In this document: positions 1-49,606 of the stretch, piece after piece
Layout of the letters: the number at the start of each line of letters is the position of its first letter
Position numbering within the stretch: position 1 is the stretch's first letter
Source: Exiguobacterium mexicanum
GTDB lineage: Bacteria > Bacillota > Bacilli > Exiguobacteriales > Exiguobacteriaceae
DNA: 64,000 nt
Reading direction: 5' to 3'
NCBI RefSeq assembly: GCF_005960665.1
Contig: NZ_CP040676.1
Span: 1,684,501-1,748,500 of the forward strand
Notes under the pieces: model-generated
Database searches by the model: none
Seen by the model: only the letters and a program-made list of their open reading frames with translations
What the model was told of the DNA's origin: nothing
Translations under genes and position numbers: made by a program

Positions 1-5
1 TCCCG

Positions 6-1472
6 ATGATGCCCGACCTGCCGAACATGCCGCCGAGCCCATACGCTGCCCTTTATGACCTGTTGATCCCGGCCGATGACGAGCTACGGCTCATCCACGA
101 CCTCGTCCCGTTCGATTTCATCACCAAGCTGCTCGAGGACACGTATTGCCATGACAACGGTCGGATGGCCGTCCATCCTGTCCGGATGTTCAAGTACCTG
201 TTCCTGAAGGCGCACTCGAACCTGTCCGACGTCGACCTCGTCAGACGGGCGAAGACCGACCTCGCCTACAAATATTTTCTGGATCTGGCACCGGAAGATG
301 ACGTCATCAATCCTTCCTCGCTCACGAAGTTCCGTCGTCAGCGCATGGCCGACGACGAGCTGCTCGACAAGTTGATCGAGCACACGGTCGAGGTCGCGAA
401 AGGGATGGGACTGCTCAAGTCACGAACATTGATTGTCGACGCGACCCATTCCCGTGCCCGGTATGGGCAAAAACCGATCGGGCAGGCGATCATCGAGGAA
501 GCGAAGGGGCTCCGTCATGCATGTTACAAAGAGACCAACGACGCGAAGGGACGTTTTCCGGAGAAGGCAAACGAGTCAGACATCGACCAGCTCCTCTCGT
601 ATGCGCTCGCCGTCGCCGAGACCGTCGAGGGCGAGATGCCTGAGCTGATGGCGCGCGAACACATCCGTGACCGTGTGAACCGTGTCCGCGAGTTCGCGGA
701 GGATGCGCACGTCGAACTTCAAGTCTCCAGGGATCCTGATGCCCGGACCGGGCACAAGAGTGCCGACTCATCATTCTTCGGTTACAAACATCATCTCGCG
801 ATGACGGAGGAGGGCATCATCACGGCCGTCGTCGTCACATCCGGCGAAGCGTCGGACGGGCATCAGATGTCGAGGCTCGTCGAGAAGAGCCACCGCGCAG
901 GGGCCGAGTTCGACCACATCGTGGGCGACGGGGCCTATTCGAGCCGGGACAACCTGATCTATGCCGCCTCGCAAGGGTGCAAGCTCGTCGCGCCATTGAA
1001 CCCACAAGTCTACTCGCCGGCACCGAACCGCGTCGAGGGTTTCACCTACAACAAGGATGCCGAACGTTACGTCTGCCCAGCCGGGCATATGGCCGTCCGC
1101 AAAGCCCGTGGCGGACGGAAGGACGTCGGAAAGAACCAAGTGGAGAGCCATTTCTTCAACATCGAGCTGTGCAAGCAATGTCCGTTACGAAAAGGCTGTT
1201 ACAAGGACGGCGCCAAATCCAGATCCTATAGCGTGTCGTTGAAATCAAGGGAGCACAGCGATCAACTTGACTATGGGCAGACCGATGACTTCAAGGACCA
1301 TCGTCGGAAACGCTTCGCCGTCGAGGCGAAAAACAGTCAACTGAAGAACCCACAAGGTCTGGCGCGCAACAAGACGCCAGACCTGAAAGGCATGACGTTA
1401 CAGAGCGTGATGGCCATCGTCGCAGTCAATCTGAAGCGAATCATCACCCTCCGGAAAGAGAAAACGGATTAA
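6..1472 (+). CDS. IS1182-family transposase
   Basis: About 488 residues. The N-terminal part resembles the InsH/DUF772 domain (region around PVRMFKYLFLK), followed by a DDE transposase domain. Likely catalytic positions are the Asp in LIVDATHSRAR (near residue 145), the Asp in GDGAYSSRDN (near 310) and the Glu in FAVEAKNSQLKN (near 440). A cysteine pair, CKQCPLRKGC, lies in the last third, as is usual in this family. It would cut and rejoin its own element. The true start could lie upstream of the window edge; the two adjacent ATG codons at 6 and 9 are the first available. No frameshift is seen, so the enzyme may be active. Confidence 0.85.
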   Translation: MMPDLPNMPPSPYAALYDLLIPADDELRLIHDLVPFDFITKLLEDTYCHDNGRMAVHPVRMFKYLFLKAHSNLSDVDLVRRAKTDLAYKYFLDLAPEDDVINPSSLTKFRRQRMADDELLDKLIEHTVEVAKGMGLLKSRTLIVDATHSRARYGQKPIGQAIIEEAKGLRHACYKETNDAKGRFPEKANESDIDQLLSYALAVAETVEGEMPELMAREHIRDRVNRVREFAEDAHVELQVSRDPDARTGHKSADSSFFGYKHHLAMTEEGIITAVVVTSGEASDGHQMSRLVEKSHRAGAEFDHIVGDGAYSSRDNLIYAASQGCKLVAPLNPQVYSPAPNRVEGFTYNKDAERYVCPAGHMAVRKARGGRKDVGKNQVESHFFNIELCKQCPLRKGCYKDGAKSRSYSVSLKSREHSDQLDYGQTDDFKDHRRKRFAVEAKNSQLKNPQGLARNKTPDLKGMTLQSVMAIVAVNLKRIITLRKEKTD

Positions 1473-1484
1473 AGGCAAGGAAAA

Positions 1485-1522
1485 AAGGCGATCGTCCCGA
1501 CACAAGTCGGGCCAATCGCCTT
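1485..1522 (+). terminator. intrinsic terminator after IS1182 transposase
   Basis: GGCGAT and CCCGAC arms pair with GTCGGG and ATCGCC, and the stem is followed by TTTTT. Confidence 0.8.
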
Positions 1523-1535
1523 TTTCACGTTCTCA

Positions 1536-1590
1536 CGCTCGGATAGAGCGGGGGTTTTTCAGTGCCCTCGCATAAGCGAAGGGGTTTTTC
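1536..1590 (+). terminator. two further tandem hairpins with T tracts
   Basis: Two short hairpins (CGCTC-ggata-GAGCG, and CCCTCGC-ataa-GCGAAGGG with one bulged base) are each followed by the same GGGGTTTTTC string. With the hairpin at 1485-1522 they form three stacked terminators on the plus strand. Confidence 0.55.
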
Positions 1591-1609
1591 TTTTGTGCGT
1601 TCAAAAAAA

Positions 1610-48061: not shown

Positions 48062-48451
48062 ATGCAACGTCATCATTTTGCCTTTATTGTCGCCACCATC
48101 GCGACGCTCGGCAGTCTTTATTTCTCGGAAATCATGCTGTACGTGCCATGCAAGTTATGCTGGTTCCAACGCATATTTATGTATCCGCTCGCCATCTATT
48201 ATTTGACGGTTATGGTCTCAAACCGTGCTGTGAACAAATTGTTCGTCGGTCTCATGGCCGGGGCGGGTTGGGCGATTGCCCTCTATCACGTCGTTCTCGA
48301 ACGCATCCCGAACGGCGACGCGTTCTGCAGTAACGACTGTTTGATTCGTTGGGTGAACTATTTCGGGTTCATCACGATCCCGCTGCTCAGCTTGATCGCG
48401 TTCACGCTCATCTTGCTCATCCAATTCATGCCGACACGCTCGAAGCGCTAA
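48062..48451 (+). CDS. bdbC: DsbB-family disulfide oxidoreductase BdbC
   Basis: 129 residues, four membrane helices. Redox cysteine pairs CKLC (near residue 28) and CSNDC (near 90) fit DsbB/BdbC, which takes electrons from a BdbD thiol oxidase to quinone. The partner BdbD is not adjacent. The ATG at 48062 has AGGAGG six bases upstream; the longer frame from 48002 has none. Confidence 0.9.
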   Translation: MQRHHFAFIVATIATLGSLYFSEIMLYVPCKLCWFQRIFMYPLAIYYLTVMVSNRAVNKLFVGLMAGAGWAIALYHVVLERIPNGDAFCSNDCLIRWVNYFGFITIPLLSLIAFTLILLIQFMPTRSKR

Positions 48452-48459
48452 TACGTGAT

Positions 48460-48497
48460 ACACAAAAGAACCGGTCTAAGGATCGGTTCTTTTGTGT
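48460..48497 (+). terminator. bdbC terminator
   Basis: 14-bp stem ACACAAAAGAACCG with its complement, T-rich right arm. Confidence 0.75.
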
Positions 48498-48511
48498 GAT
48501 TAAATCGCGCG

Positions 48512-48696
48512 TCCTTTTCGGCGCCCATGCTTTCCGCGGGCAATCACGGTGCCCCATCGCGACGGTCTGACTGTCCAGTGCCAAGGCCGGCATCCGAACT
48601 CCTAGGGGAGAGCGATGCAAGGATGACCCCGTAAAGCGCGATTCGCGCTGCGGAGGCATCCGCATCGCCCCAGGAACGGAGGGTGCCGGCAAAGGC
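48512..48696. other. GC-rich structured intergenic element
   Basis: Fills most of a 303-bp stretch without a gene, between the terminators of bdbC and nadE. Outer arms CCTTT-CGGCGCCC (48513-48526) and GGGTGCCG-AAAGG (48681-48695) pair. Inside, 48601-48631 pairs nearly continuously with 48651-48674 (GCGATGC, GGATG and CCCCG blocks) around a capping hairpin AGCGCG-ATT-CGCGCT (48635-48649). A smaller hairpin GACGG-CTGTC lies at 48561-48575. No open frame has a ribosome site. It may be a repeated palindromic element of the genome or a structured RNA. Confidence 0.6.
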
Positions 48697-48724
48697 AATA
48701 CAGAACTTGGCTCATCATACAAAA

Positions 48725-48750
48725 AGAACCAACCCGTGGGCTGGTCCTCT
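48725..48750 (-). terminator. nadE terminator
   Basis: AGGACCAGCC with GGTTGGTTCT (two G-T pairs), then TTTTTG on the minus strand. Confidence 0.75.
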
Positions 48751-48754
48751 ATGG

Positions 48755-49570
48755 TCACTGCCACCACTCGTCGTAGAGCGAGGCTGGCATATGATGCTTA
48801 TGGCGCGACCGCTTGAAGATCGTCTCGATCCGCTCGGCGATGGCCGGGTCGATCTCTTTGCCTTCTAAGTAGTCATCGAGCTGATCATACGTCATCCCGA
48901 GAGCGACCTCGTCCGGGAGTCCCGGCTTGTCATCTTCTAAGTCAGCCGTCGGCACTTTATAGATTAAACTCTCATGCGCTCCAAGTTCATGGAGTAATGC
49001 CTTGCCTTGGCGTTTGTTGAGTCCGGTGAGCGGCGTCAAGTCGGCAGCCCCATCGCCGTGCTTCGTGTAAAAGCCCGTCACATATTCAGCCGCATGGTCC
49101 GTACCGACGACGAGCGCGCCGAACGTGGCGGCGATGTCATATTGAACTTTCATCCGCTCGCGTGCTTTCGTATTCCCTTTATGGAAGTCACCGAGTTCAA
49201 GACCGGTCGCTTGTGCGAACGCTTCAGCCGAGGCGTCGACGGCCGGCTTCACGTTGACCGTGAACGTCTTGTCCGGACGGATGAATTCGAGGGCGCGCTT
49301 CGCATCCGCTTCGTCATGTTGTTCCCCATACGGAAGACGGACGGCGTAGAACGTGTACTCCGCGCCCGTTTCTTGACGCAACTCTTCCATCGCCTGCTGA
49401 CAGAGTTTACCGGCGAGCGTCGAGTCCTGTCCACCCGAGATGCCAAGGACGAGCCCTTTCGCCCCGGCCCGTTTAACATAAGCCTTTAAAAAATCGGTCC
49501 GAAGACGAATTTCTTCGGCCGGGTTAATCGATGGTTTGACATGTGTCGATTCGATAATATGTTGCTGCAT
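48755..49570 (-). CDS. nadE: ammonia-dependent NAD synthetase
   Basis: About 271 residues, the size of Bacillus NadE. The P-loop-like ATP pyrophosphatase motif [17 protein letters not shown] is near residue 45, and the NAD(+) synthetase region [25 protein letters not shown] is split around residue 165-190. It converts deamido-NAD to NAD with ammonia. The ATG at 49570 has GGAGG nine bases upstream; the TTG at 49576 is too close. Confidence 0.95.
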
Positions 49571-49606
49571 ACTCAACTTCCTCCCTAACTGATATCGGTT
49601 TGCCTA

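Follow-up and report, generated by a model that had tools for sequence, protein, structure and literature searches.

Between the convergent bdbC-like and nadE-like genes of Exiguobacterium mexicanum lies a GC-rich block of 185 bp, and its place between two transcription terminators raises the question of what it is and how it came to be there. The initial annotation, made from the sequence alone, had offered two answers, a mobile palindromic repeat or a structured RNA. Comparison with related genomes indicates that the block is very probably a decayed MITE related to insertion sequences (ISs) of the IS1182 family, which landed in a terminator shared by bdbC and nadE. Several properties support this assignment: the conserved hairpin of the block, here called R1, is shared with transposase-bearing ISs; the element is short, non-coding, multi-copy and dispersed; and occupied sites can be compared with empty ones.

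The block and its two repeat units

The window, meaning the whole 64,000-nucleotide stretch that was analysed, has the following order at this locus: the bdbC stop at 48451, a terminator hairpin, the GC-rich block, a second terminator hairpin and the nadE stop at 48755. The features are listed below in window coordinates.

48062-48451, plus strand: bdbC-like gene (ORF), upstream of the block; the orthologous junction was compared in 19 genomes
48464-48493, plus strand: bdbC-side terminator hairpin (AAAAGAACCGGTCTAAGGATCGGTTCTTTT), inverted repeat I2; probable left copy of a duplicated target
48503-48563, minus strand: unit B, truncated; outer arm (GGCGCC, 48520-48525) and about half of an R1 hairpin (48530-48563)
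48564-48582, no strand: junction between half-unit B and unit A, a putative deletion scar; in relatives, 50-120 bp separate two complete units
48583-48701, plus strand: unit A, with arms GGCCGGCATCCG (48586-48597) and GGGTGCCGGC (48681-48690)
48598-48679, plus strand: complete R1 hairpin, an 80-nt conserved bulged hairpin (covariance model R1, 83.2 bits, E 2.9e-20)
48721-48749, minus strand: nadE-side terminator hairpin (AAAAAGAACCAACCCGTGGGCTGGTCCTC), inverted repeat I1; probable right copy of the duplicated target
48755-49576, minus strand: nadE-like gene (ORF), convergent and downstream; ortholog search

Much of the initial description holds. The block is flanked by the two terminator hairpins and is non-coding. 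Its GC content is 65%, whereas the window as a whole has 52%, and a mere 0.9% of 185-bp segments reach the same level. The plus strand folds strongly, at -98.6 kcal/mol against -79.3 ± 4.75 kcal/mol for shuffled sequences (z = -4.07, 0 of 200 shuffles), and the minus strand gives z = -2.92. Furthermore, the proposed inner hairpin (48601-48631 with 48651-48674), capped by AGCGCG/CGCGCT, is present in the minimum-energy fold. The claim that the block pairs from end to end does not hold as worded: the outer arms at 48513-48526 and 48681-48695 are indeed complementary (CCTTTTCGGCGCCC and CCTTTGCCGGCACCC) and could pair, but in the best fold the partner of the right outer arm is 48586-48597, and the left third of the block folds by itself.

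The two outer arms are instead the sub-terminal arms of separate, related units, B (truncated) and A (complete). A DNA search of relatives divides the block into these two repeat units, each of which is found separately elsewhere. At several further loci, in G000 (the genome of the window), G004, G006, G010 and G012, unit A has counterparts of 91-95% identity. Unit B is matched in other genomes over query positions 4-64, and full-length B units occur at four loci (L012, L019, L023 and L026). Full copies show that each unit contains an 80-nt bulged hairpin of one common kind and that the two hairpins face opposite ways; the half retained in the window's unit B is the CTTTCCGCGGGC...CATCGCGAC side, and the other half is missing. 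Solo A-type hairpins were also seen at one and the same place, downstream of the terminator of one gene, in G005, G010, G004 and G000 (L006, L021, L022 and L025), where they appear to have been inherited vertically.

The R1 hairpin family and IS1182-family elements

A covariance model of R1 was built from an alignment of 13 cores, which has 26 invariant columns and shows two-sided changes at 14 of 23 base pairs. Within the window's genus the model matches 18 of 19 genomes, and in a sample of the class Bacilli 58 of 250; a strict DNA pattern for R1 was matched in Lysinibacillus, Oceanobacillus, Planococcus, Psychrobacillus, Virgibacillus, Lentibacillus and other genera. The hairpin family is therefore dispersed in many Bacilli, in keeping with the initial remark that the block recalls intergenic repeats of Bacillus genomes. 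Searches of plasmid and phage collections and a distant blastn search with the window block gave no match.

Among 86 distinct copies, 96.2% of cells are paired, compared to 76.2% after shuffling and 34-46% when partners are slid by 1-3 columns; the 86-copy alignment was fitted to the R1 model, which biases it towards that model, and the slid control is nonetheless far lower. Two-sided changes were counted in 349 cells, where shuffling predicts 106, and covariation is seen at 17 of the 23 pairs. The initial annotation had named a single copy, with no covariation between arms, as the result that would speak against it; the block is multi-copy and R1 covaries.

Strong folding and strong covariation could also be expected of a host structured RNA, either a small RNA or a cis-regulatory element with a cellular function. 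The pairing types lean slightly the same way, since G-T (37) exceeds A-C (16) among 1976 R1 cells, a small strand bias that a folded single strand could produce. These counts give no clean separation of DNA from RNA, and the G-T share of 1.9% is low for a selected RNA. Moreover, Rfam gives no relevant match at gathering or permissive thresholds, the bdbC-nadE site is empty in 12 relatives and occupied in both orientations among others, R1 recurs within transposable elements, and its structure is retained at both ends of mobile elements that have no transposase. No evidence of a host RNA role for the block was found, and the structured RNA of the initial annotation is very improbable here.

The other initial suggestion, a mobile palindromic repeat, is borne out by the genomic settings of R1. 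In G006 and G022, many near-identical copies lie within elements of about 1.7-1.9 kb that carry a transposase gene. The encoded protein belongs to the IS1182 family (NF033551, E 9e-147, cut-off passed; DDE_Tnp_1_6 and DUF772). A third IS1182 subtype of about 1.85 kb, in G000 and G022, has a weaker R1. The hairpin recurs in several IS1182-family ISs, where it is located on the other strand, some 80-200 bp upstream of the transposase gene. Of 150 R1 matches listed for the genus, 33 are near an IS1182 transposase, 48 are in close pairs with no transposase nearby and 69 are solo. In 30 of those 33 listed cases the hairpin lies upstream of the transposase gene, on the other strand and at recurring spacings. 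All 25 close pairs in the genus are divergent, with gaps of 52-122 or 300-324 bp, and many of these pairs are copies of one another rather than independent events.

The same arrangement is found outside the family of the window's genus. In G223, coordinates put R1 on the other strand and 101 bp upstream of the gene in all five full-length IS1182 copies listed, and in G202 they show the same position and strand as in the genus. At three Lysinibacillus loci R1 adjoins IS1182-like fragments. In addition, G202 has R1 pairs on both sides of IS1182 transposase fragments, at loci of which some stretches are masked. Elements with two R1 hairpins can therefore derive from an IS by deletion, which weakens the idea that two-R1 MITEs are obligatory hybrids of two ISs. 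The search for an autonomous IS with an A-type R1, the subtype of the window copy, found none. Twenty-four of the 58 R1-positive Bacilli genomes have no IS1182 match at E 1e-10 (G142 and G020 are examples), and several of these hold at least 16 R1 copies; in such genomes R1 is either a relic or dependent on something else.

The window itself opens with part of another IS1182-family element (window 1-1596; whole element G000:C4:1684229-1686096), in which the transposase profile matches at about window 42-1451. Its own R1, at G000:C4:1684343-1684423, is just beyond the window.

Insertion at terminators

Intact R1 elements have ends that read TCAG-RYTGTWGACWAA. In the genus, 17 elements have exact flanking duplications of 20-30 bp and two more have duplications with one mismatch; in nearly all, the duplicated flank is a whole terminator-like hairpin. 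Beyond the genus, 8 of 12 probable R1 elements in G223 and G202 show duplications of 20-34 bp, and one more shows 18 bp. An empty-site comparison gives the same result at L077, where relatives without the G006 element have one hairpin and G006 has two. For these relatives of the window copy, the link to IS1182, the multiplication of the elements and the duplication of whole terminators are established.

Other subtypes behave differently. Elements of the L174 and L175 subtype have duplications of about 9 nt within the loop of a hairpin. The IS1182 subtype with GAGGCTGGGACATAAC ends (G000 and G003) has no R1 match in its flanks and no hairpin duplication. In G248 and G043, R1 elements with GAGGCTGGGACATAA-type ends, which are similar to the GAGGCTGGGACATAAC ends, likewise show no hairpin duplication. 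The notion that R1 marks hairpin-duplicating elements only was dropped on account of these G248 and G043 elements, and R1 and whole-hairpin duplication are therefore not strictly tied.

At the window locus the units are multi-copy, and unfilled sites with one terminator can be set against filled sites with two. In 12 of the 19 genomes the bdbC-nadE junction is element-free, about 55 bp long, and contains one bidirectional terminator. In six genomes (G000, G004, G006, G010, G012 and G023) two terminators enclose the element, and in G025 the site is rearranged. The element points one way in G000 and G004, where unit B is truncated, and the other way in G006, G010, G012 and G023, where unit B is of a different subtype. 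The opposite orientations imply more than one event, which could be either two insertions into the same terminator or a later replacement or inversion of the site.

The initial annotation had concluded from the position between two terminators that the block is by design part of neither the bdbC nor the nadE transcript. The position stands, but it is better explained by duplication of a terminator on insertion, because related elements copy their target terminator and element-free genomes have one shared terminator. The two window terminators are thus probably a diverged duplicate. They resemble each other only modestly, so that this reading leans on the relatives: the arms of the nadE-side terminator are 74% complementary to the bdbC-side terminator, and a score at least as good is reached by 12 of 276 terminator pairs, in a null that includes some related pairs. 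The weak similarity could also suggest unrelated, gene-specific terminators of separate origins with the element merely between them. This is quite unlikely given the one bidirectional terminator at the junction in 12 genomes, and given that intact relatives of the element mostly duplicate their target hairpin.

The history of a decayed MITE in a shared terminator could be as follows. An ancestral copy would have had two 80-nt R1 hairpins, divergent and one near each end. An IS1182-family transposase acting in trans may have joined the ends of the element to the bidirectional bdbC/nadE terminator at its two 5' feet, and repair would then have copied the entire hairpin. Such an insertion would have been near-harmless, as each gene kept a terminator after the copying. 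A later deletion presumably took half of one R1 together with the spacer, after which the terminal repeats would have drifted apart, as would the two copies of the terminator. It counts against this reading that the ends of the window copy show no legible intact terminal inverted repeat; such repeats are clear in intact relatives.

The role of the hairpin and comparison with known systems

The retention of R1 pairing in elements without genes, together with the fixed orientation in close pairs, makes a cis role in transposition the simplest explanation, with R1 probably acting as a DNA hairpin. Such a hairpin, cruciform or single-stranded, would be recognised at the element ends as DNA rather than RNA. 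A fuller and more tentative proposal, for which the odds fall somewhat short of even, is that the transposase or a partner reads hairpins both at its own ends, where R1 is the conserved cis DNA hairpin, and at its targets, and that insertion takes place at both 5' feet of a terminator, which is copied each time.

The main rival to this cis DNA role is that R1 belongs to the IS but acts as an RNA in transposase control, as a transposase leader or antisense regulator. The location of R1 upstream of the transposase, on the opposite strand and at recurring distances, would suit such a regulator. This reading is nevertheless unlikely, as MITEs without transposase bear R1 at both ends in fixed divergent orientation, ISs of the L083 type have a terminator-like hairpin between R1 and the transposase, and L077 has one outside R1. 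In L077 and L166, -10-like sequences could be found by eye in the interval between R1 and the transposase, but no promoter passed the scan. A near-identical IS that lacks the hairpin bears on how far R1 matters for a cis DNA role. On the 68.7-kb contig C3 of G000, an IS1182 copy (L168, 1073-2652) is 98.9% identical to the G006 element but without about 112 bp that include R1, so R1 may help rather than be required. This copy is flanked by two different hairpins and not by a duplication.

Short palindromic units that are intergenic and form divergent pairs are also characteristic of REP/REPIN elements, which depend on a RAYT (Y1 HUH) transposase. R1 shares these features. It differs in the class of its transposase, since the link covered by the analysis is to a DDE enzyme (IS1182 family), in its length of 80 nt, which is greater than that of REPs, and in its target, as insertion duplicates terminators. 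It is therefore extremely improbable that the block is a REP/REPIN-like element.

The closest known systems are IS1272 and TnSha1, members of the IS1182 family that target hairpins, many of them terminators, without primary-sequence specificity, as described in two reports (PMC4923244, PMC5678879). IS1272 inserts in either orientation at one target and removes all or part of the stem-loop without duplication, according to PMC4923244. R1 elements are similar in using an IS1182-family transposase and in targeting terminator hairpins, but unlike IS1272 they mostly duplicate the whole hairpin instead of replacing the stem-loop. In the model of PMC5678879 (Fig. 13), duplication of the whole stem-loop (pathway b) and of the loop (pathway c) are hypothetical alternatives to the observed replacement. 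Set beside that account, R1 elements look like natural cases of pathway b, and the L174 and L175 elements of pathway c. The accessible parts of PMC4923244 and PMC5678879 contain no mention of the R1 hairpin, and a search of the open-access literature, which leaves out most subscription papers, yielded no earlier account that places R1 within IS1182 elements. Autonomous R1 elements encode the same transposase as IS1182-family ISs (NF033551), but many IS1182 elements are without R1.

Another comparison can be made with Bhal-1, a Bacillus stem-loop repeat of 74 bp with 36 copies in B. halodurans (PMC2267715). Bhal-1 and R1 are alike in size and hairpin character, as judged by description rather than consensus sequence, which suggests that they may be the same family. 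Unlike R1, Bhal-1 has no transposase link in the accessible part of PMC2267715.

These findings give a GC-rich hairpin repeat (TTTCCGCGGGC...) of many Bacilli genomes an origin and a tie to a transposase family. They also provide many natural examples of hairpin-duplicating insertion, which the IS1272 model paper treats as a hypothetical pathway only. Furthermore, a mobile element can settle between convergent genes and leave each gene with a terminator. Because they covary, such repeats can easily pass for regulatory RNAs.

The transposase of the L083-type IS is split over two overlapping frames on the minus strand (2284-2898 and 1265-2728). The split is present in nearly all copies, and the same type occurs in G003, G004, G006, G008 and G022. 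The frames overlap at GGAAAAAAGC, an A-AAA-AAG run that looks like a programmed -1 frameshift site.
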